In this document: piece after piece, positions 36,171 to 58,635 of the stretch
How the letters are laid out: each line of letters opens with the position of its first letter
How positions within the stretch are numbered: the stretch's first letter is position 1
Assembly: GCF_014194695.1 (NCBI RefSeq)
Contig: NZ_JACIAH010000014.1
Location: forward strand, 1 to 64,000
Length of the DNA stretch: 64,000 nucleotides
Direction of reading: 5' to 3'
Source: Rhizobium sp. BK399
Lineage (GTDB): Bacteria; Pseudomonadota; Alphaproteobacteria; Rhizobiales; Rhizobiaceae
Notes under the pieces: model-generated
The model's database searches: none
What the model was told of the DNA's origin: nothing
What the model saw: only the letters and a program-made list of their open reading frames with translations
Position numbers and translations under genes: made by a program

Positions 36171-37511
36171 CTACTCCTTCGGTAGCACGACCGCCGCGAC
36201 ACATTCCTTCATCTGCTTCTCAGACGCCCCTTGGGTGTAGACGCCGAACGTGATGTCCTTCTTTTTGTCTGACACGTGACCGACCACGTCCTTAACGGTC
36301 TCAAGAGGCTGGTCCGCGTGTCTGGCCTGAGAGATGAACCAACGCCGTGCCGAGTGGAAGTTGACGAGGCTCCTGCGCTTCCCGGGTCGCTTGTCATCAA
36401 CACCGAGCTTCTCGCGGTAGTTATTGAAGCGCTTGCCGAAGGTGTCGCCGGGGTCACGTTCATCGGTCAGCTCATGGAATAGCCAATCCTTGGGCTGCTT
36501 GTCCTTCACCCTTCGAGTGATGATCTCCTTCAGATCGGGGTGAATGGGAACCTTTCGAGCCGCCGAGCGAGTCTTTCCCTGCTGAATATCGAAGATACCG
36601 TCATGGACCTCCTCAACCCACAAGGTAAGGACTTCAGCGAGCCTCATCCCAGACAAGCATGAAATGCGGAGGGCATCGGCTATCTGTTGCTTGAAACCTT
36701 CCTTCATGCCCTTTGGATACGGCGCATAGAGCAGTGTCTTCAGCTCAGCCTCAGTAAAGGGCCGCTCAGTTGCGTTGTCACCTCGCTCGACTCGTCGGCG
36801 TGCGTTGGCTACCTCCTGTCCAAGCCACGGGTTATCCTCAACAGCTCCTGTCACATGGTCGCGCTTGATCAGATATTCCCAGTAGCCCCGAAGAGCGGTC
36901 ATGTGCTTCTTCGCGGTGCTTCTATCCATCGGCTCGATGACCTCGGTCACATAGCGCCCGGCAGCCTTACGGGTGATGTCGGGAAGCCGGTACTTCTCGC
37001 CTATGCACCAGCGGGCAAAGCGATTGATCAGGCCCCGCCGCTCATTCGTCGTCTTAGCAGCGAGCTTGATGGCTGAGAGGTACGCTTCGAGATAATGGTC
37101 AACAGAGTGATCACCTGCGACGGCTCTAGTGAAGCGCTCACGGGCCTTTCCTCGTAAGCTCTCAGCCTCAGCCTCTGCGGCCCATACCGCGTCCTCCAAC
37201 GCCTCACCGCCCTCGGTCAGCGCCTCAGCGATGGCAGCCCTTGAAAGCTCACCCCGAAACTCTGCCAACTCCTCACTTGAACTGATAACCTCTCCTGCCT
37301 TGACGCGGGCAAACAGCCCCCTGACTTCCAGTTCCAACTTATCGCGCTTCGCCATAGCTAACTTAATGTCGCCGGTCTCCAAGCTCTGGAGGTACATGGT
37401 CGTGCCGTTGAAGTAGCTTCGACACGCCTCGGGGATGGCTATTCGAAACCACCACGTCTGCCCCCTCAGATCGAGGAGACGCTTAGACCCTTTATTGCTT
37501 TTTCCCGCCAT
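36171..37511 (-). CDS. Tyrosine integrase of the island (446 aa)
   Basis: N-terminal region RLLDLRGQTWWFRIAIPEAC (DUF6538-like opening of rhizobial phage/island integrases), a SAM-like core-binding domain, and a C-terminal catalytic domain with SCLSGMRLAEVLTLW (Arg I), the HSARRWF motif (H-x-x-R), GHVSDKKKDITFGVY and nucleophile Tyr at the VYTQG segment. ATG 37511 is preferred over a TTG 9 bases upstream; it lacks a Shine-Dalgarno. The first codon lies within the right arm-type repeat, so integrase binding would overlap its own translation start. It is adjacent to attR, as expected for an integrase gene of a tRNA-targeting element. Confidence 0.93.
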   Translation of the reverse strand: MAGKSNKGSKRLLDLRGQTWWFRIAIPEACRSYFNGTTMYLQSLETGDIKLAMAKRDKLELEVRGLFARVKAGEVISSSEELAEFRGELSRAAIAEALTEGGEALEDAVWAAEAEAESLRGKARERFTRAVAGDHSVDHYLEAYLSAIKLAAKTTNERRGLINRFARWCIGEKYRLPDITRKAAGRYVTEVIEPMDRSTAKKHMTALRGYWEYLIKRDHVTGAVEDNPWLGQEVANARRRVERGDNATERPFTEAELKTLLYAPYPKGMKEGFKQQIADALRISCLSGMRLAEVLTLWVEEVHDGIFDIQQGKTRSAARKVPIHPDLKEIITRRVKDKQPKDWLFHELTDERDPGDTFGKRFNNYREKLGVDDKRPGKRRSLVNFHSARRWFISQARHADQPLETVKDVVGHVSDKKKDITFGVYTQGASEKQMKECVAAVVLPKE

Positions 37512-37534
37512 TCTGACCAACCATTCTGACCAAC
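37509..37534. repeat. Integrase arm-type repeat pair, right end
   Basis: Two direct copies of CATTCTGACCAA separated by one base, 25/26 identical to the block at 27533-27558. It ends 57 bases before the attR core and includes the integrase start codon. Confidence 0.7.
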
Positions 37535-44742: not shown

Positions 44743-46464
44743 ATGGCGACAGTCGCTGCCACCGGTATTTTTTCAGAGCGCTCGATCAGAAGGGCCCGGC
44801 TTGGCTCCGGGCTTGTCATGTTCCTGTTCGTCCTGCTGCATCTATCCAACCACGCGCTCGGACTGATTTCAGTGTCGGCCGCAGACGACGGGCGACGCAT
44901 CTTCCTGGCGATCTGGCGCAACCCCGTGGGCACCTTCGTGTTCTACACTGCGGTGTTCGTCCATATCTGCCTTGTCCTTCGCTCCGTCTACAAGCGCCGC
45001 AGCCTGGTCATGCCGGCAGCGGAGATGGCGCAGATGGTGCTCGGGCTCGCCATTCCGCTGCTGTTGATGGACCATGTGATCGGTACCCGGATCGCCCATA
45101 CCCTCTTCCACTACCGCGATGACTACGAGACGATCGTTCGCCTGCTCTGGGTCACCTCTCCGGGCGCCGGCTGGCGACAGGTCGTCGCCCTTCTTTTCGT
45201 CTGGACCCACGGATGCATCGGCCTGCATTTCTGGCTGCGCTACCGGCCCTGGTATGACCGTGTCGCCGCGATGCTCCTAGCCGTCGCGATCCTGCTGCCG
45301 GTACTCGCCATTCTCGGCTTTATCGAAATGGGTCGAACGATCGCCGAGCCGGCCTACGAGGGCATGGTCAATACCGATCGCTATCGCGACAACCTCAACA
45401 CGCGCTACTACTCCAACCCCGAGGCGCAGCAGACGATCGCCATGATCCGGGCCGGTCTCTATGGCTCGTTTTCCGCAGCGCTCCTGATCGTTGTCGGTGC
45501 CAGGACCTTGAGACGGTGGCGCGAGCGCGTCGACCAGATCACCGTGCGCTATCCAGGTGGCGAGGCGATAAGCGTCCCGCGCGGCTTCACGGTTCTGGAG
45601 GCCAGCCGTCTTGGCGGAGTTCCGCACTACTCTGTCTGCGGCGGCAAGGGGCAATGCTCGACCTGCCGCGTCCAGATCCTCAGCGACGACAACGACCTGC
45701 CGCCTCCCGATAAGTTGGAGCAGTCGACTCTCAAGAGGATCAAGGCGGCCTCCGACGTGCGTCTTGCCTGCCAGTTGCGGCCCACACACGACATCACCGT
45801 CGCGCCGTTGCTGGTGGCCGCGCCGGAAAACACATTACCGCCCAACACCCAGGAGACGAGCCCGGGGCGTGAGCGTGAGATCACCGTGCTCTTCTGCGAC
45901 ATCCGCCACTTCACCTCGCTCACCGAGACACGGCTTCCCTTCGATATCGTCTTTCTGCTCAACCGGTATTTCGCGCTGGTCGGCAATGCCGTCGAAAAGG
46001 CTGGCGGGCGCATCGACAAGTTCATTGGCGATGGCGCCATGGCGCTTTTCGGCATCGGCAACTCGGCCGAGGACGCGTGTCGCCAGGCGATCGAAGCGGC
46101 TGCCACGATCGTCCGTGACATCGCCAAGCTCGATGCGGAGCTGAGAGACGAGCTCATCATGCCACTTCACATTGCTATCGGCATTCATACCGGGCCCGCC
46201 GTTGTCGGAACCCTTGGCTATGGCCGCACGCGCAGCGTCACGGCCATCGGCGATACGGTCAATGTCGCAAGCCGCCTGGAGACTGCTGCCAAGGAGTTCA
46301 ACGCTGCGATCGTCATTTCCGATGCGGTCGCAAGCCTTGCGGGTGCCGACACCACCCATGCGGAAAGCCGCGAAATCAGCGTCCGCGGCCGCGCCCTGCC
46401 CTTGAAAGTCTACGTCATTTCGAGCGACAAGGCCGTCAACCTCATCGAAGGAAAAGACAGATGA
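44743..46464 (+). CDS. cyaC: CyaC-like redox-sensing adenylate cyclase (573 aa)
   Basis: Three modules. Residues 20-255: six transmembrane helices with conserved His (His33/37, His74, His111, His156/162) resembling the dihaem cytochrome b anchor of succinate dehydrogenase. Residues 265-355: a plant-type [2Fe-2S] ferredoxin domain with Cys299, Cys305, Cys308 and Cys343. Residues 378-555: class III cyclase with metal Asp386 (FCDIRHF) and Asp430 (KFIGDGAM), base-recognising Lys426 and Asp in IGDTVN, and transition-state Asn/Arg. This is the layout of S. meliloti CyaC, a quinone/redox-responsive adenylate cyclase. Likely makes cAMP according to respiratory state. Its stop overlaps the FkbM gene start. 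Confidence 0.9.
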   Translation: MATVAATGIFSERSIRRARLGSGLVMFLFVLLHLSNHALGLISVSAADDGRRIFLAIWRNPVGTFVFYTAVFVHICLVLRSVYKRRSLVMPAAEMAQMVLGLAIPLLLMDHVIGTRIAHTLFHYRDDYETIVRLLWVTSPGAGWRQVVALLFVWTHGCIGLHFWLRYRPWYDRVAAMLLAVAILLPVLAILGFIEMGRTIAEPAYEGMVNTDRYRDNLNTRYYSNPEAQQTIAMIRAGLYGSFSAALLIVVGARTLRRWRERVDQITVRYPGGEAISVPRGFTVLEASRLGGVPHYSVCGGKGQCSTCRVQILSDDNDLPPPDKLEQSTLKRIKAASDVRLACQLRPTHDITVAPLLVAAPENTLPPNTQETSPGREREITVLFCDIRHFTSLTETRLPFDIVFLLNRYFALVGNAVEKAGGRIDKFIGDGAMALFGIGNSAEDACRQAIEAAATIVRDIAKLDAELRDELIMPLHIAIGIHTGPAVVGTLGYGRTRSVTAIGDTVNVASRLETAAKEFNAAIVISDAVASLAGADTTHAESREISVRGRALPLKVYVISSDKAVNLIEGKDR

Positions 46465-48064: not shown

Positions 48065-48190
48065 CTATGCCCTTGTCCATTCACTTAAATTTTCGGTCTG
48101 GTGCTATCATATGAAACCCCAGGCCGTCGATTGCCGTAGATGCAAAATCGCATTGCGGTGAGAGCATGGGTCTGTGCTAGGTTTTTGAAG

Positions 48191-49369
48191 ATGAGCGACC
48201 TCTCCAACGATCGATTCTACGCCGACGTGCCAGTCTTTGCCGACTTCGAGCGGGTGACCGACACGAGCAATTACCGGCCGCTGCCGGAGGGCTGGTTCCT
48301 GGCGGTTGCCGACATTGTCGGATCGACCAAGGCCATCGGCGCTGGCCGCTACAAGGACGTGAACATGGCCGGCGCCAGCGTCATTTCCGCGGTCCTGAAC
48401 GCGGTGGACAGGGGCGACTATCCCTATGTGTTCGGCGGCGACGGTGCCGTTGTCGCACTCCCACAGGAGTTCGAGACGGCAGCGCGCGCCGCGTTGGCGG
48501 CAACGCAGCGATGGGTGGATGAAGAACTCGACCTTGCGCTGCGAATCGCGATCGTGCCGCTTGCGGATATTCGCAAGGAGGGTCTCGACGTGCGTGTGGC
48601 GCGCCATGCGGCGAGCGAAAACGTCGCCTATGCGATGTTTGCCGGCGGCGGCGCGTCCTGGGCCGAGCGGCAGATGAAGAACGGTCTTTATGGCATCGAG
48701 CCGGCGCCATCAGGGGCTCGGCCCGATCTGACCGGCTTGTCCTGCCGGTGGAATCCGATCAAGGCCCACAACGGCGAGATCGTCTCGATCATAGCCATAC
48801 CGGCAGAAGATGGCAGGCCGAGCCCGGAATTCCGCAAGCTCGTGACGGAGGTGATTGCGCTGGCGGCAGAACAGGGGCGCGGCGGCCACCCGGTTCCATC
48901 AGGTGGCCCCGAGTTTTCCTTTTCGTTCAAGGGTTTCGATCGCGAGGCACGTGCCCTGGCAGCGCCTGGAAAGCGGCTCTGGACGAAGCTCTTCATCCTG
49001 TTCCAGAGTATCATGATCGTCCTGCTGCACACGTTCGGCCTGAAGCTTGGCCGTTTCGACGCCCGCCGCTATACCGAGGAGGTGTCCGGCAATTCCGATT
49101 TCCGCAAGTTCGACGACGGCCTGAAAATGACGATCGACGTCGATGCTTCGCACCTTGCCCGGATCGAGGCGCTGCTCGAGGAGGGAGAGGCAAAGGGCGT
49201 GGCCCGCTATGGGCTGCATCGCCAGTCCTCCGCCTTGATGACCTGCTTCGTGCCGACGCCGATGTCGCACGACCACGTGCATTTCATCGATGGGGCCAGC
49301 GGCGGCTACGCTGTCGCCGCAAGCCAGATCTCAGGCAAGACGCTTTCCCCCGCCGACATTACGCCTTGA
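48191..49369 (+). CDS. DUF3095 family, cyclase-fold protein (392 aa)
   Basis: The DUF3095 signature is present: FYADVPVFADFERVTDTSNY at the N-terminus, then the first metal Asp in AVADIVGSTKAI and second in VFGGDGAVVAL, both retained from nucleotide cyclases. The adenine-recognising Lys of true adenylate cyclases (four residues before the second Asp) is Val here. The C-terminal half is specific to the family. Function unknown; it may produce or bind a nucleotide second messenger. ATG 48191 gives the usual start; an upstream in-frame extension is unlikely. Its end overlaps the converging dehydrogenase gene by 11 bases. Confidence 0.82.
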   Translation: MSDLSNDRFYADVPVFADFERVTDTSNYRPLPEGWFLAVADIVGSTKAIGAGRYKDVNMAGASVISAVLNAVDRGDYPYVFGGDGAVVALPQEFETAARAALAATQRWVDEELDLALRIAIVPLADIRKEGLDVRVARHAASENVAYAMFAGGGASWAERQMKNGLYGIEPAPSGARPDLTGLSCRWNPIKAHNGEIVSIIAIPAEDGRPSPEFRKLVTEVIALAAEQGRGGHPVPSGGPEFSFSFKGFDREARALAAPGKRLWTKLFILFQSIMIVLLHTFGLKLGRFDARRYTEEVSGNSDFRKFDDGLKMTIDVDASHLARIEALLEEGEAKGVARYGLHRQSSALMTCFVPTPMSHDHVHFIDGASGGYAVAASQISGKTLSPADITP

Positions 49370-50699
49370 TGATGTGGTCTCCGGCAAGGCCGAGCCGCGC
49401 AAAGACGTTGCGCGTATCGACGATCAGCGGCGCGTTGCGGGTGATCGCTGCATAGTCGAGCTGGTCATGATCCGTCGCGACGAGGATGGCGTCATAGGAC
49501 GCGATGGTTTCGGGGGTGAGGTCGACCGACGCGCGGCCCTTCAGATGCTGGTATTCGCGTGTCGAGGGAATCTCGCCGACCAGCGGATCGTGATAGTCAG
49601 CCTTCCCGCCACGCTCCTCGATGACCTCGATCAAGCGCAGCGACGGGCTTTCGCGGATGTCGGCGACGTTCTTCTTGTAGGCGAGACCAAGAACCAGCAC
49701 CCGCGAGCGGCTGAGCGCCTTGCCGGCACGCATGTCGAGCGCCTCGGCGAGCTTGGCGACCACGTAGCGCGGCATGGCCGAGTTGATCTCGCCGGCAAGT
49801 TCGATGAAGCGGGTCGGCAGTTCGTATTCGCGCGACTTCCAGGTCAGGTAGAAGGGGTCGATCGGGATGCAATGCCCGCCGAGGCCGGGGCCGGGATAGA
49901 ATGGCATGTAGCCGAACGGCTTGGTCTTGGCCGCGTCGATGACCTCCCAGACATCGATCCCCATGGCGGCGTAGACCGTCTTCAATTCGTTGACAAGGGC
50001 AATGTTGACGGAGCGGAAGATGTTCTCCGTCAGCTTGACCGCCTCGGCCGTTGCGTTGGACGAGACCGGAACGACGGTCTTGACCGCGGCGCTGTAGAAC
50101 CCAACCATCAGCGAGAGGGCATCCGCGCCGTCGCCGGCGACGATCTTCGGGATGGTCGCTGTGTTGAAGTGCTGATTGCCCGGATCCTCGCGTTCCGGCG
50201 AGAAACCAACGAAGAAGTCGGTGCCCGATTTGAGGCCGGTGGTCTCCAGGATCACCTTGACGACATCGTCGGTCGTGCCGGGATAGGTCGTCGATTCCAG
50301 CACCACGAGCTGGCCGCTTCTCAGATGCACTGCGATCGACCGGGCCGTTGCCTCGACGAAGGAAAGATCAGGATCGCGGTGGCGGGTGAGCGGTGTCGGA
50401 ACGCAGATGATGATGACGTCGCAGCCGGCAAGCTCTCCAAAATCTGTGGTGGGCGAAAAGCGCTTCTCGTCGATCGCGAGCGCAAGGTCGCCGCTTGTGA
50501 CGGCATCGATATAGGAGCGTTTCGCGTCGAGCGAGACGACTTTGGCGGGGTCGATGTCGAAACCGGTGACGGCAAAGCCGCTACGGGCAATGGCGATCGC
50601 CAGCGGCAGGCCGACATAGCCGAGCCCGATGACACCAGCCCGGGCGGTGCGTGCTTCAATCTTGCGTGAAAGGGCGTCATAGGCGGGGGAACGTGGCAA
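49359..50699 (-). CDS. UDP-GlcNAc/ManNAc-type nucleotide-sugar dehydrogenase (446 aa)
   Basis: N-terminal NAD domain GVIGLGYVGLPLAIAIARSG, conserved SYIDAVTSGDL, VPTPLT, ESTTYPGTT; central FSPEREDPGNQ; catalytic Cys in GPGLGGHCIPIDPFYL; C-terminal VLVLGLAYKKNVADIRESPS. This matches WbpA/TviB/VipA-type enzymes that oxidise the C6 hydroxyl of UDP-N-acetylhexosamines to uronic acids. The TTG start at 50699 is uncertain. It would supply an amino-sugar uronate to the glycan built by neighbouring enzymes. Confidence 0.9.
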   Translation of the reverse strand: MPRSPAYDALSRKIEARTARAGVIGLGYVGLPLAIAIARSGFAVTGFDIDPAKVVSLDAKRSYIDAVTSGDLALAIDEKRFSPTTDFGELAGCDVIIICVPTPLTRHRDPDLSFVEATARSIAVHLRSGQLVVLESTTYPGTTDDVVKVILETTGLKSGTDFFVGFSPEREDPGNQHFNTATIPKIVAGDGADALSLMVGFYSAAVKTVVPVSSNATAEAVKLTENIFRSVNIALVNELKTVYAAMGIDVWEVIDAAKTKPFGYMPFYPGPGLGGHCIPIDPFYLTWKSREYELPTRFIELAGEINSAMPRYVVAKLAEALDMRAGKALSRSRVLVLGLAYKKNVADIRESPSLRLIEVIEERGGKADYHDPLVGEIPSTREYQHLKGRASVDLTPETIASYDAILVATDHDQLDYAAITRNAPLIVDTRNVFARLGLAGDHIIKA

Positions 50700-51146: not shown

Positions 51147-52526
51147 ATGAGGATATTACCGAGAATGGGCACGATCGAATCCAGCGTCTCGTCTATTTTA
51201 TTGGACCGGGTTGCCGAATGGCTGACCAATTCCTCCCTTGCCGGCGATGATCTCGAGACCATCGTTCGCGGATTTTGTGAGCGGATCGCCTCCGCTGGCC
51301 TGCCGATCGCGCGTGTGCACCTGACCTTCTCGATGCTGCACCCGCTCTACGATGCCTTGAGCTTTACCTGGCGGCGTGCGAGCGGCGTCACGATCGAAGG
51401 CTATCGCCACACCGTCGGCCAGAAACCGGACCGCTTTCTGCAGAGCCCGTATTATTATCTCCTCGACAACAACCTGCAGCACATAAGACGCCGCATCCCG
51501 GCCGAGGGTCCGGCGGAATTTCCGGTGTTCAACGACCTTAGGCAGGAGGGGATCACCGACTACCTCGCCTTCGTCCAGCCGTTCGGCGACGGGTCGGTGC
51601 AGGGGATGATGGGGTCATGGTCGACGGACAGCCATGTCGGCTTTTCCGACGACATGATCGAGGCGCTCCTGCGCATGCAGAACCACCTGGCCGTCGCAGC
51701 GAAGATGGCCGTCCTCGGCAAGCTCGCCAATAACATGCTGACCACTTACCTGGGCGGCGATGCCGGCAAGCGGGTGCTGAACGGCCAGATCCGGCGCGGC
51801 GACGGCGAGACGATCCGCGCCGCGCTCGTCATGGGCGACATGCGGCAATCGACGGTCTATGCCGAGAAGGAGGGCCGGCAGGCCTATATCGACACGCTGA
51901 ACCAGTTCTTCGACGCAATCGCCGCGCCCTTCAACCGCAATGGTGGCGAAATCCTGAGCTTCCTCGGAGACGGGTTCCTGGCGGTCTATCCCTGTGGCCG
52001 GCACAAGGACCCCTCCAAGATTGCCTGCCAGGCGGCGTTGACGGCTGTTCACCAGGCGCAGGCGCGTGTCGCCGAGCTGAACAGGGAGCGTCTCGAGCAG
52101 GGCCTCAGCAAGGTTTCCTACGGCATCGGCCTGCACGTCGGCAACGTGATGTTCGGGAATGTCGGTCTCAAGGACCGGCTGACCTTCTCGGCCTTCGGCT
52201 CCGCGGTCAACGAAGTGCAGCGCCTGCAGTCGCTGACAAAGAAATATTCGAGCGAGGTCGTGGCGAGCCAGGCTTTTGCCGGCTACTGCGGCGGCGAATG
52301 GCATACGCTCGGCGAGGAAAAGCTGCGCGGGGTCCGCCAGAAGGTTACCGTCCTGCAGCCCCGCATTGCGGCACCGGCGATCCATGTCGAGGAAGGCTTT
52401 CACGAGGTGGCGCCGGCAGCGCTTTCGGAAGCCGAGCAGGTCATCATGCTTCATCGCGACGCACGCCGGCAGGCCGTGAAGCCGGCTGTCGAGACGTTCG
52501 TCCAGCAGGGTCCCGACGCGCGGTAA
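51147..52526 (+). CDS. Soluble class III cyclase-like protein with altered base-recognition residues (459 aa)
   Basis: Residues 1-200 form an uncharacterised sensor-like domain (FCERIASAGLPIARVHLTFS, then ITDYLAFVQPFGDGSVQG), similar in layout to a GAF-like domain. Residues 225-400 are a class III cyclase domain: metal Asp231 (VMGDMRQSTVYA) and Asp275 (SFLGDGFLAV), and Asn/Arg in VNEVQRL. The purine-recognising Lys is Ser271 and the Asp of GD-x-VN is Ser (FGSAVN), so the nucleotide specificity may differ. Start uncertain: ATG 51147 or 51165. A strong terminator follows. Confidence 0.82.
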   Translation: MRILPRMGTIESSVSSILLDRVAEWLTNSSLAGDDLETIVRGFCERIASAGLPIARVHLTFSMLHPLYDALSFTWRRASGVTIEGYRHTVGQKPDRFLQSPYYYLLDNNLQHIRRRIPAEGPAEFPVFNDLRQEGITDYLAFVQPFGDGSVQGMMGSWSTDSHVGFSDDMIEALLRMQNHLAVAAKMAVLGKLANNMLTTYLGGDAGKRVLNGQIRRGDGETIRAALVMGDMRQSTVYAEKEGRQAYIDTLNQFFDAIAAPFNRNGGEILSFLGDGFLAVYPCGRHKDPSKIACQAALTAVHQAQARVAELNRERLEQGLSKVSYGIGLHVGNVMFGNVGLKDRLTFSAFGSAVNEVQRLQSLTKKYSSEVVASQAFAGYCGGEWHTLGEEKLRGVRQKVTVLQPRIAAPAIHVEEGFHEVAPAALSEAEQVIMLHRDARRQAVKPAVETFVQQGPDAR

Positions 52527-52547: not shown

Positions 52548-52660
52548 CAATCCCTTGAAACGCCCCATTTTTTGCGTGTCCGTCATCAACTGGACACCCT
52601 CATTGCGGTACGGTAGTGTGCCTGCACGGGAACAAAGAAAAACTGGGGAATATCATTGGT

Positions 52661-54546
<1,886 letters not shown>

Positions 54547-54553
<7 letters not shown>

Positions 54554-56460
54554 CGCGACGCACATTTCTGACTGGCCTGATTGGCTCGACCGTCCTTCCC
54601 GCTGCCGTGAAGGCGGCCTCGGAAGACCGTGACATAGAGCCGGAGTTTTTGCGGGACTGGCTACGGGCCGGTCGCATTCCTCCCATGGCGGACCGGCTGC
54701 CGGCACATCCGCGGATCGTCAACATGAGGGCGGCGGGGCGGCAACCCGGCGTTTATGGCGGCACGGTGCGCACGATCATCGGCAGCCAGAAGGACATCCG
54801 CTACATGACCGTCTATGGCTATTCCCGCCTGGTCGGTTACGACAAGCACCTGGTGTTCCAGCCCGATATCCTGCTTGGTTTTGAATCGACCGACGATACG
54901 GTCTTCACCTTCCACCTGCGCGAGGGACATCGCTGGTCCGACGGCCACCCGTTCACGGTCGACGATTTCCAATACTGGTGGGAGGACGTGATCCTCGACA
55001 AGAACCTGACACCGGGCGGTGGCGCGCTCGAGCTCAGGCCGCATGGCAACCTGCCGAAATTCGAGGTCGTCGATAACCTGACGGTACGATACAGCTGGGA
55101 GCGGCCGAACCCGATGTTCATGCCGGCCCTCGCCGGCCCGCTGCCTCTCGTGATTTTCGGGCCTGGCCACTACCTCAAGCAGTTTCACAAGAAGTACCAG
55201 GACGATTTTCGTCTCTCGGCGCTGATGAAGCAGAACCGGGTCAAGAAGTGGGCGGACCTGCACATCAAGATGTCGCGGGCATCGCGCCCCGAGAATCCCG
55301 AGCTGCCGACGCTCGATCCATGGCAGAACACCACCCCCCTGCCCTCGGAACAGTTCGTGTTCGTGCGCAATCCCTTCTTCCACCGGGTTGACGAGAACGG
55401 AGTACAGCTTCCCTATATCGACAAGTTCATCCTGAACGTCAGCTCGTCCTCGATCATCGCGGCAAAGGCGGGTGCCGGTGAATCCGACCTGCAGGCCACC
55501 GGCGTCGACTTCAACGACTACACCTTCCTGAAGGATGCAGAAAAGCGGTTCCCCGTAAAGGTCAACCTTTGGAAGCAGGTGCGTGGGTCGCGCGTGGCGC
55601 TGCTGCCGAACCTAAACTGTGCCGACGATGTCTGGCGCAAGCTCTTCCGCGAAACTCGCGTAAGGCGCGCCCTGTCGCTCGCGATCGACCGGCACGAGAT
55701 CAACATGGTAGCCTTCTACGGTCTCGGCAAGGCAAGCGCCGACACCGTACTGCCCGACAGCCCGCTCTTCCGGCAGGAATATGCGGATGCGTTCATCGCG
55801 CATGACAAGGATCAGGCAAACAAGCTCCTTGACGAGGTCGGGCTGAAGGACCGGGACGACGAGGGGATCCGTCTCCTGCCGGATGGCCGCCGCGCCGAGA
55901 TCACCGTCGAGACGGCTGGCGAGAGCAACCTCGATACCGATGTCCTGGAGCTGGTGCGCGATCATTGGCGCGAGGTGGGCATCGCGCTTTACACCCGCAC
56001 TTCGCAGCGCGATGTGTTCCGCAGCCGCGCCATGAGCGGCACGATCATGATGTCGATCTGGTACGGCATCGAAAACGGTGTCGCAACCGCCGACATGTCC
56101 CCGGGCCAGCTCGCGCCGACCATGGACGACCAGCTGCAATGGCCACTCTGGGGAATGCATTACCTCTCGGCCGGACAGGAAGGCAGTCCGCCGGACCTGC
56201 CCGAGGTCCAGCAGCTCGTCGATCTCCTGAAGCATTGGGGCGATACCATGCGGTTCGAGGAGCGCGAGGTGATCTGGCACCAGATGCTGTCGCTCTATAC
56301 CCAGCAGGTCTTCTCGATCGGCCTGATCAATAGCACCCTGCAGCCGATCCTGAGCTCGGCAAAGCTCCAGAACGTGCCGACGGAGGCGCTCTATGGCTTC
56401 GATCCGACCTCCTATCTCGGCCTCTACATGCCGGATTCCTTCTGGTTCAAGGAGGCCTGA
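54547..56460 (+). CDS. Extracellular solute-binding protein family 5 (637 aa)
   Basis: A Tat-like signal (TRRTFLTGLIGSTVLP) suggests folded export. SBP_bac_5 features: QPDILLGFESTDDTVFTFHL followed by REGHRWSDGHPFTVDDF, and PLFRQEYADAF. At 637 residues it is longer than typical DppA/OppA. It overlaps the ATPase stop by 7 bases. Probably binds a peptide, opine-like conjugate or sugar-linked compound; the ligand cannot be deduced. Confidence 0.9.
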
Positions 56461-56463
56461 GGA

Positions 56464-57462
56464 ATGCTGAAATATATCCTCTGGCGCATTGCCGCGATGG
56501 TGCCGACGCTGTTCATCATCTCGGCACTCGTCTTTACCATCATCGAGCTGCCGCCAGGCGACTTCTTCGAAAGCCAGATCGCCGAACTGCGGGCGCAGGG
56601 GGAAAGCGCAAACCTTCAGGAAATCGAGGAGCTCCGCAAGCAGTACGGTTTCGACAAGCCCGAGATCCTGCGCTACTTCTACTGGGTCGGCGGCATGCTG
56701 CACGGCGACTTTGGCTACTCCTTCGAATACCAGCTGCCCGTCTCGGAGGTGGTCGGCGATCGCCTATGGCTGACGATGCTGGTGTCCTTTTCGACGATCC
56801 TGCTTACCTGGCTGATCGCCTTCCCGATCGGCATCTATTCGGCAACCCACCAGTATAGCTGGGGTGATTACGGCCTGACATTCCTCGGCCTTCTCGGCAT
56901 CGCCATCCCGAACTTCATGCTGGCGCTGATCCTGATGTACTTCGCCAACATCTGGTTCGGCGTCTCGATCGGGCACCTGATGGACCAGAAGTTCCTGAAC
57001 GAGCCGATGAGCTGGGAAAAGGCGCGATCGATCCTGTCGCATCTGTGGATACCCGTGATCATCGTCGGCACGGCAGGGACAGCCGGCATGATCCGGCGCC
57101 TCAGGGCCAACCTGCTCGACGAGATGCAGAAACAGTATGTCGTCACCGCCCGTGCCAAGGGTCTCCACCCGTTGCGGGCGCTGGTGAAATATCCGCTTCG
57201 CATGGCGCTCAACTTCTTCGTTGCCGACATCGGGTCGATTTTGCCATCGATTATTTCCGGCGCGGAAATCGTCGCGATCGTCCTGTCTCTCGAAACGACA
57301 GGCCCGATGCTCATCAAGGCATTGCAGAGCCAGGACATGTATCTTGCAGGCTCGTTCCTGATGTTCCTCGCCTTCCTCAACGTGATCGGGGTTCTCGTCT
57401 CCGACATCGCACTCGGCTTCCTCGATCCGCGTATTCGCCTGCAAGGCAGGAGCACCAAATAG
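56464..57462 (+). CDS. Peptide-type ABC permease, DppB/YejB-like (332 aa)
   Basis: Six predicted transmembrane helices, N-terminal MLKYILWRIAAMVPTLFIIS and the EAA motif region EMQKQYVVTARAKGLHPLRA. Follows the binding-protein gene by 3 bases. Forms the pore with the following permease. Confidence 0.92.
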   Translation: MLKYILWRIAAMVPTLFIISALVFTIIELPPGDFFESQIAELRAQGESANLQEIEELRKQYGFDKPEILRYFYWVGGMLHGDFGYSFEYQLPVSEVVGDRLWLTMLVSFSTILLTWLIAFPIGIYSATHQYSWGDYGLTFLGLLGIAIPNFMLALILMYFANIWFGVSIGHLMDQKFLNEPMSWEKARSILSHLWIPVIIVGTAGTAGMIRRLRANLLDEMQKQYVVTARAKGLHPLRALVKYPLRMALNFFVADIGSILPSIISGAEIVAIVLSLETTGPMLIKALQSQDMYLAGSFLMFLAFLNVIGVLVSDIALGFLDPRIRLQGRSTK

Positions 57463-58635
57463 ATGTCGCCCTTGCCACCGCCCGGCGCACCCATGCCACA
57501 CTACGTCTCCACGGCGCCCTTCGATCCCACCGCGACGGAGGGAATGGGGGCTGCGCAGTCGCGCATCCATCTCGCCTCGCAAAAGCATCTGATGTGGTGG
57601 AAGTTCAAGCAGCACCGGCTGGCGCTCGCCTCGGGCGTCTTCCTGCTTTGCACCTATCTGATGATCATCATCGTCGAATTCATTGCGCCCTACGGGCTGC
57701 ACACCAAGAATGTCGACTTCATCCATGCGCCGCCACAGCGCGTGCATTTCTTCCACAACGGGAATTTCGTCGGCCCGTTCGTCTATGGCCGCAGCATGTC
57801 GCTCGACCTCGACACGCTCCATCGGATCTACACCGACAAGCCTGACGATGTGCAGCCGATCCGTTTCTTCTGCCGCGGTGACGGCTACAAGTTCTGGGGA
57901 CTGGTGAGCATGGACCGGCATCTGGTCTGCCCGGCGGTCGGCGGGCAGATGTTTCTGCTTGGCACCGATCGCCTCGGTCGCGACGTGCTCTCACGCATTT
58001 TGTACGGGGCTCGGATTTCGCTGACGATCGGCCTGATCGGCATTGCCATCAGTTTCTGCCTCGGGATCATCATCGGCGGACTTGCCGGCTACTGGGGCGG
58101 CATCTTCGACCTGATCGTCCAGCGCCTGATCGAGGTGCTGCAGTCGCTGCCGAGCCTGCCGCTCTGGATGGCGCTTGCGGCAATCATGCCGGTGACCTGG
58201 AGCCCGATCGTCATCTATTTCGGGATCACCGTGATTCTCGGGATCATCGACTGGACGGGACTGGCGCGTGCCGTGCGCTCGAAACTTCTGGCGCTGCGCG
58301 AGGAAGACTATGTCCAGGCTGCCCAGCTGATGGGAGCGAGCACGCCCCGTATCATCGGCAGGCACCTGGTTCCCGGCTTCATGTCCCATCTGATCGCCTC
58401 GGCGACGATTTCGATCCCGGGCATGATTCTCGGCGAGACGGCACTGAGTTTCCTTGGACTGGGTCTGCGCCCGCCGATCACCAGCTGGGGTATTCTCCTG
58501 ACCGAGGCGAAGAGCGTAAGTGTCATCGCGTTCTATCCATGGTTGTTATTTCCGATTATACCGGTCGTTCTGGTAATTTTGGCGTTCAACTTTCTGGGAG
58601 ACGGCTTGCGTGATGCGGCAGATCCCTACAAATAG
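57463..58635 (+). CDS. Peptide-type ABC permease, DppC/YejE-like (390 aa)
   Basis: Abuts the previous gene (TAG then ATG). A short cytoplasmic N-terminus, one anchor helix (residues about 52-75), a large periplasmic loop with HPKNVDF-like region, then five helices with GTDRLGRDVLSRILYGARIS and the EAA loop REEDYVQAAQLMGASTPRII. The loop after the first helix is longer than in DppC, typical of YejE-type proteins. It completes the importer. Confidence 0.92.
   Translation: MSPLPPPGAPMPHYVSTAPFDPTATEGMGAAQSRIHLASQKHLMWWKFKQHRLALASGVFLLCTYLMIIIVEFIAPYGLHTKNVDFIHAPPQRVHFFHNGNFVGPFVYGRSMSLDLDTLHRIYTDKPDDVQPIRFFCRGDGYKFWGLVSMDRHLVCPAVGGQMFLLGTDRLGRDVLSRILYGARISLTIGLIGIAISFCLGIIIGGLAGYWGGIFDLIVQRLIEVLQSLPSLPLWMALAAIMPVTWSPIVIYFGITVILGIIDWTGLARAVRSKLLALREEDYVQAAQLMGASTPRIIGRHLVPGFMSHLIASATISIPGMILGETALSFLGLGLRPPITSWGILLTEAKSVSVIAFYPWLLFPIIPVVLVILAFNFLGDGLRDAADPYK

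Follow-up and report, generated by a model that had tools for sequence, protein, structure and literature searches.

CyaC of Spirulina platensis (1WC0-1WC6) is a class IIIb adenylyl cyclase, and the enzymes of this class carry Thr or Ser at the position seven residues before the transition-state Asn (Asn-7). The transition-state Asn of mammalian adenylyl cyclase is presumably residue 1025. It is numbered 1029 in the accessible sections of PMC4174876, a numbering that plays no part in the assignment of residue 348 given below. According to the same sections, the substrate-specifying pair of the cyclase Rv1625c is Lys296 and Asp365 and its catalytic Asn is residue 372, which sets the second base-recognition place at Asn-7, and a triple mutant in which the residues K-F-D were exchanged for E-R-C arose from attempts to switch its choice from ATP to GTP (PMC4174876). 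The spacing recurs in Ma1120, where the second residue is D157 and residue 164 holds the place of the Asn (PMC4215837, accessible part). In that part, Ma1120 mutants without Lys and Asp are described as having lost adenylyl and gained guanylyl cyclase activity, and the tabulated kcat/Km of the K101E/D157T mutant, which has neither residue, is 3.16 for ATP and 0.23 for GTP (PMC4215837). In the guanylyl cyclase Cya2 of Synechocystis (2W01), the base-reading pair is E-G (PMC4215837, same part), and in mammalian adenylyl cyclase Asp1018 and Trp1020 are the specificity places named in the accessible text of PMC2796266.

Class III cyclases of the Pycsar systems are associated with pyrimidine substrates. 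The base-pocket triplets F100/R142/Q144 of EaPycC, F60/K104/F109 of AnPycC and Y50/D94/R97 of BcPycC are given in the available excerpt of PMC11224242, where an EaPycC triple mutant including R142 is reported as dead.

Gene, predicted fold and catalytic residues

Rhizobia possess dozens of class III cyclases per genome, and in Rhizobium sp. BK399 Pfam PF00211 was found at 34 places. One of these lies in the window analyzed here, a stretch of 64,000 nucleotides of that genome, as a gene for a soluble class III nucleotidyl cyclase of 459 amino acids (51147-52526, + strand) whose reading frame is free of internal stops and whose cyclase domain matches PF00211 over residues 227-395 (34.4 bits, cut-off 21.9). 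The existing annotation describes an adenylate/guanylate cyclase domain protein and leaves the product unspecified. Judged from sequence comparison, the true start may be Met7 (51165), as the orthologues of R. johnstonii 3841 and S. meliloti are both annotated from the residue matching it. The distribution of ATG codons chooses neither residue 1 nor residue 7, because ATG is nearly universal at both (67/67 orthologues at residue 7 and 66/67 at residue 1, the remaining one having a stop).

A model of the full protein was computed with AF2 from an alignment of 81 rows (A1) and reached a pLDDT of 89 and a pTM of 0.78 for the monomer, in which the dimer active site is not represented. It contains a class III catalytic domain (residues 220-405; 51804-52361, +) whose closest structural matches are photoactivated and CyaC-type cyclases (8qfg, Z 24.4); superposition on CyaC 1wc1 with VIA-align gave a Z of 23.4 over 187 aligned residues at 2.1 A. 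A long signaling helix (residues 168-202; 51648-51752, +) links it to an N-terminal GAF-like domain (residues about 16-165; 51192-51641, +). Modeled separately, residues 1-192 yielded a pLDDT of 93.6 and a GAF fold (VIA-align against 3o5y: Z 13.5, 137 aligned residues, 2.8 A), with GAF domains from kinases, PDEs and phytochromes heading the structural matches. The Foldseek list was likewise composed mostly of GAF domains with some LuxR-type ligand domains (5l10, 2q0o, 5xhx), and the LuxR-type 6cbq appeared at rank 50 of the VIA-align list. The Pfam model GAF_2 was detected in five of 80 family members (best 8.3e-5) and not in the window protein. On the strength of the models, the N-terminal domain is probably a ligand sensor.

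The two metal ligands Asp231 (51837-51839, +) and Asp275 (51969-51971, +) as well as the transition-state residues Asn355 (52209-52211, +) and Arg359 (52221-52223, +) were found unchanged in all 101 tblastn rows of at least 60% identity, and all four are present in 164 of 165 rows of the wider family. The first-pass annotation had located these residues, together with a Ser four residues before Asp275, and the translation and the alignments bear it out. The two metal Asp, the Asn/Arg pair and the class III fold (PF00211, AF2) mark the protein as a class III cyclase, and fold, metal Asp, Asn and Arg are shared with CyaC.

Base-reading positions and their variation in the family

Counting as in Rv1625c, i.e., four residues before the second metal Asp and nine and seven residues before the Asn, places the base-reading positions of the window protein at Ser271 (51957-51959, +), Thr346 (52182-52184, +) and Ser348 (52188-52190, +). 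Ser271 stands at the canonical Lys position (D275-4) and Thr346 (Asn-9) at a third specificity place, that of the F in the Rv1625c K-F-D triad (PMC4174876, accessible sections). Ser348 (Asn-7) corresponds to Rv1625c Asp365 and is the true second base-recognition place; in a phmmer alignment, the Glu and Gly of Cya2 (2w01) fall on residues 271 and 348. In the first-pass annotation, the missing purine Asp had been sought at Ser352 (52200-52202, +) in the GD-x-VN motif. The letter is correctly read, but residue 352 is ruled out as the purine position by the Cya2 alignment and by the numbering of Rv1625c and Ma1120, all of which point to 348, and it is not a base determinant, because the adenylyl cyclase CyaC (1wc0) reads GPSVN with Pro at this place. 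Pro is likewise found in 70 of the 88 Lys-bearing family rows, and the occurrence of Ser at both 348 and 352 is a coincidence. The earlier statement that both purine-recognition residues are replaced can thus be kept in amended form: the Lys is absent and the true second place is also not Asp, both states being fixed in the orthologues, and the error lay in the label of the second residue. The proposed class III alignment accordingly puts the Lys position at 271, as expected, and the second residue at 348 instead of 352.

A non-Asp second residue had also been taken as a sign of oddity, a view that does not hold, as Thr occupies this place in 88/88 Lys-bearing family rows and in CyaC. By comparison of sequences, Ser or Thr at 348 appears ordinary for class IIIb, and the unusual change appears to be that from Lys to Ser at 271. 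Compared with the individual subclasses, the window protein has Ser271 where canonical class III adenylyl cyclases have Lys and guanylyl cyclases have Glu; at Asn-7 it has Ser348, as do 101/101 orthologue rows, and not the Asp of class IIIa, and it agrees with class IIIb enzymes in this residue but lacks their Lys. Two further residues deserve mention. Phe350 (52194-52196, +) lies two residues past 348 at the place of mammalian Trp1020 counted from Asp1018 (PMC2796266, accessible text), and Gln358 (Asn+3; 52218-52220, +), present in 96/101 orthologue rows, is an unusual neighbor of the active site that is Tyr in Cya2. Cya2 thus offers an aligned catalytic domain with a small residue at 348 and an unusual Asn+3 residue, but has Glu where the window protein has Ser271. 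Altogether, the base pocket appears to differ from those of textbook adenylyl and guanylyl cyclases.

Residue 271 is Ser in all 101 tblastn rows of at least 60% identity, a set that includes the window itself twice (L029, L111) and may include one species twice, and remains invariant down to about 62% identity. In the same rows, residue 352 varies (S 92, A 8, T 1). Among the 31 rows below 60% identity, residue 271 is K in 15, D in 11, and Q, S and N in one each, with two rows not aligned at this position; Ser271 also recurs in relatives of 40-51% identity, and K, D, N, R, L, T, A or E are found in other family members. Ser271 is therefore no stray mutation but the mark of a clade within an alphaproteobacterial family of cyclases that begin with a GAF-like domain. 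Of 101 genomes of the taxonomic family of the window, 63 gave some match at E 0.001 and 38 gave none, and searches at E 1e-30, in which similarity is graded, detected relatives in 73/199 genomes of the order and 95/289 of the class. Large plasmids carry many of the orthologues: 307 plasmid records match at least 80% of the query length at a single site, and the best site reaches at least 60% identity in 234 records. No publication on this cyclase family or its pocket was found by title or abstract opening among the matches listed from the open-licence literature.

For phylogenetic analysis, most near-identical orthologues and L155 were left out before an alignment of 94 rows was made, from which six further rows with a stop codon and seven near-copies were removed to give the 81 rows of A1; one short row was removed for A2, and a broader set of 165 rows remained after 26 of 191 had been dropped as near-copies. 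In the 81-row tree, whose calculation excluded the trait columns, the 20 rows with Lys271 share the same side of a branch that has an SH-aLRT support of 99. The other 61 rows comprise Ser, Asp, Asn, Arg, Leu, Thr and Ala types, and the query belongs to a group of 31 rows that all carry Ser271 (SH-aLRT 98).

In the 81-row alignment, the strongest covariation partner of residue 271 is 346 (z 8.8), followed by 179, 354, 197 and 341, which are not known base contacts, and, in sixth place, by 348 (z 4.8). The charges of 271 and 346 in the 165 rows are basic/acidic in 94, neutral/neutral in 44, acidic/neutral in 22, acidic/basic in three and neutral/acidic in two, with no other class. An acidic 346 thus accompanies a basic 271 in 94/94 rows and any other residue at 271 in 2/71, the two exceptions being L170 (Ser/Glu) and L234 (Asn/Asp). 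The pairing is a strong pattern and no statistical proof, as the tree holds few independent contrasts, two on starred branches and five at most (sign test p 1), and the covariation was dropped as a proof for this reason.

Other pocket residues follow the type of residue 271 in the 165 rows, as tabulated with six rows of other types left out. Thr348 is present in 88/88 Lys rows and Ser348 in 22/22 rows of a Rhizobiaceae-Phyllobacteriaceae core. Phe350 occurs in all 22 core rows and in 10 of the 14 other Ser271 rows and is absent from the 88 K, 23 D, six N and six R rows. Gln358 is found in 19/22 core rows, its place being taken by S, A, V, T or C in the tabulated K, D, N, R and other Ser rows. 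Within the family, CyaC-like Lys/Asp/Thr at 271, 346 and 348 contrasts with Ser/Thr/Ser in the window protein, and CyaC resembles the latter in having a residue other than Asp, namely Pro, at the place of 352. Seven paralogues from the same genome (L013, L014, L016, L021, L024, L027 and L030) belong to this family at 26-40% identity and have kept the catalytic residues; in six of them the alignment with the query begins at residue 15-22, and all seven carry K271, D346 and T348, so that the window protein is the sole Ser271 member among the eight family members in its genome (E < 1e-30). In another class III cyclase of this genome, which is not one of these eight (L010, C16:63818-64273), the Lys place likewise seems to be taken by Ser (SFMGDG), an observation that serves only as a lead, as the underlying pattern scan misread some rows, with certainty L029 and L016.

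A sibling clade with Asp271 (L131-L140 and others) has Tyr229, two residues before the first metal Asp, in 20 of 23 rows, similar to Y50 and D94 of the UTP cyclase BcPycC, and one member, L135, matches 7r65 at 2e-5. If D94 holds the Lys place, as its numbering implies, Asp271 and Tyr229 represent two of the three BcPycC residues, and from sequence this clade would be a better place than the Ser clade to look for cUMP.

Transport and sugar genes around the cyclase

The cyclase gene is followed by the genes of an ABC importer on the same strand: an ABC transporter protein with two fused ATPase domains (52661-54553, in an ORF that opens at 52616; two ABC_tran stretches), a family 5 solute-binding protein (54547-56460; SBP_bac_5) and two permeases (56464-58635, composed of 56464-57462 and 57463-58635, both with BPD_transp_1). 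A divergent gene for a nucleotide-sugar dehydrogenase with UDPG_MGDP_dh domains lies upstream (49359-50699, - strand). Conservation of this arrangement was examined in 100 loci, consisting of the best 80 of 346 relatives from a collection scan and 20 close matches from the taxonomic family, window included. The importer ATPase was identified in 96, the dehydrogenase in 87, the solute-binding protein in 80, a DUF3095 gene in 79 and the first permease in 73 of these, counts that are lower bounds, since 20 loci had flanks of 1.5 kb only and L052 a short upstream side. The cyclase thus keeps its place amid transport and sugar genes in different genera. At the S. meliloti locus, cyclase and importer are separated by a polysaccharide lyase gene (PF14099), and glycosyltransferase genes come after the permeases both in R. 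johnstonii and in the window.

The relatives of the solute-binding protein in the PDB are mixed, with 5ipw, named oligopeptide-binding, as the best, followed by SPH1118 (7ver), which we take to be an oligosaccharide-binding protein, and the alpha-galactoside-binding 6epy; the class of cargo is therefore a guess between peptides and oligosaccharides. No importer or sugar neighbors were found within about 1.5 kb in 14 examined Ser271 relatives of 40-51% identity, for which reason the link to transport is silent on why the Lys was lost.

A hairpin with four T residues directly past the cyclase stop codon in the window makes cotranscription of cyclase and importer uncertain. It folds little better than shuffled sequences, 26 of 200 of which did equally well (z -1.19). 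A comparable perfect-stem hairpin with a T-rich tail was found in 0/67 orthologues and in 11 of 2000 random control segments, the scan covering these and not the window itself, and the idea of a conserved terminator behind the gene was accordingly rejected. A consensus scan of the window reported no terminator at this site, possibly owing to pairing of the T run of the hairpin with its stem.

Pfam scanning of the neighboring proteins, which left small ORFs outside its scope, revealed transport, sugar, methyltransferase, DUF3095, cyclase and integrase genes and no Pycsar-type effector (PycTIR or PycTM). The DUF3095 protein (48140-49369, +; PF11294, 446 bits) contains the motifs DIVGST and GGDG, which by eye resemble two cyclase metal sites, and in locus L160 a DUF3095 gene of 39% identity adjoins a cyclase with Asp271. 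Another class III cyclase (44743-46464, +) ends 4.7 kb before the window cyclase; it has the canonical Lys and a 2Fe-2S ferredoxin-like domain (PF00111) and is possibly redox-linked. A phage-type integrase with DUF6538 is encoded at 36171-37520 (- strand). On pSymB of S. meliloti 1021, the orthologue (L309:3001-4349; NC_003078 828467-829815) measures 1349 nt as against 1350 nt in strain 2011 and most listed strains, and may be frameshifted or bear a sequencing error.

Substrate, regulation and wider meaning

The reading that we favor, with evenly balanced confidence, starts from the conservation, predicted fold, clade and synteny of the cyclase established above: the protein would be a class III cyclase that is active, under the control of a ligand and remodeled in its base pocket, and ATP is still its likeliest substrate. 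It is suggested by the retained catalytic residues, the GAF-like domain in front of the cyclase and the conserved place of the gene. Like others of its kind, the enzyme would act as a dimer, switched through the long signaling helix by its own GAF-like domain upon binding of a putative ligand. As the residues of two-metal catalysis are complete, it most probably converts a nucleoside triphosphate into a 3',5'-cyclic nucleotide. Its pocket would have been rebuilt from a CyaC-like Lys/Asp/Thr at 271, 346 and 348 to Ser/Thr/Ser together with Phe350, with Gln358 as an additional part in the Rhizobiaceae-Phyllobacteriaceae core, and ATP would be held without the Lys contact, perhaps with a relaxed choice of base. 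The signal probably reports oligomer uptake or the turnover of surface polysaccharides, a role proposed from the fixed position beside sugar genes and an ABC importer of the peptide/oligosaccharide type.

The simplest alternative is an ordinary, ATP-specific adenylyl cyclase with Ser271 as a neutral difference between lineages, which would share the product cAMP with the favored reading. Rv1900c is an adenylyl cyclase without the canonical Lys. In Ma1120 K101E/D157T, kcat/Km is still higher for ATP than for GTP (PMC4215837, tabulated values), which also makes the earlier claim that Lys and Asp fix adenine specificity too strong; together with the gain of guanylyl cyclase activity, the kinetics of these mutants imply that another product need not follow from the loss of both residues alone, which can nevertheless loosen the choice. 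A neutral difference is nevertheless a somewhat unlikely explanation, because Ser271 is invariant in the orthologues while the family varies, and residues 346, 348 and 350 differ along with it, a pattern that looks like selection. A catalytically dead protein that binds nucleotides as a sensor or scaffold would fit the lost Lys contact and the presence of a GAF-like domain, and a role as sensor had been entertained in the first-pass annotation. Dead enzyme paralogues, however, usually lose catalytic residues, and the invariance of the metal Asp pair, Asn and Arg in 101/101 orthologue rows renders this highly improbable.

From the sequence comparison, a product other than cAMP is possible. For a guanylyl or purine-promiscuous cyclase speaks Phe350, which we take to resemble the residue of guanylyl cyclases. 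The available part of PMC4215837 adds that the second place varies in guanylyl cyclases, with Ser among the residues found, that Tyr at Asn+3, where the window protein has its unusual Gln358, raises guanylyl cyclase activity in Cya2, and that the loss of Lys and Asp did so in Ma1120. Such a specificity is all the same quite unlikely, as the Glu typical of the Lys place is replaced by Ser in 101/101 rows and occurs in just 2/165 family rows. Production of cUMP or cCMP by a non-defense counterpart of the Pycsar cyclases would be in keeping with the loss of the Lys, the small polar pocket residues next to Phe350 and the Tyr prevalent two residues before the first metal Asp in the related Asp271 rows. 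The Lys place is similarly altered in the CTP cyclase EaPycC, where by the published numbering it is held by Arg (R142, with metal D146; PMC11224242, available excerpt), and BcPycC (7R65) shares the class III fold with the window protein (Z 19.8, rmsd 7.9, 203 aligned residues). PADLOC PycC models also match the window protein, the best at 2.9e-16, but two of them fit 81/81 family members including the 20 Lys-bearing ones, and Pycsar membership on the basis of these matches was rejected for lack of discrimination. Moreover, none of the triplets given for clades B, D and E in the excerpt of PMC11224242 is present as a set in the window protein, which has M229, S271, L273, G274 and L278, the scanned neighbors included no effector, and the gene is fixed among transport and sugar genes. 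A pyrimidine product is hence considered improbable, to a similar degree as a guanylyl cyclase.

The window protein belongs to a class III cyclase clade that, by its sequences, appears to have rebuilt its base pocket, and within the family the make-up of this pocket differs from clade to clade. In a more far-reaching and rather doubtful version, the entire non-Lys branch would consist of non-defense cyclases whose triads at 271, 346 and 348 encode the choice of substrate, and in rhizobia, as in other alphaproteobacteria, the Ser type would make not cAMP but cyclic nucleotides of a pyrimidine or mixed kind as a routine signal of metabolism. As the family combines a range of naturally occurring base-pocket triads with a single scaffold, it renders the base choice of class III cyclases directly testable, and it tells which cyclases should not be assumed to be producers of cAMP. 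Cyclic pyrimidines would have a function beyond phage defense if the Ser or Asp types do produce cUMP or cCMP.
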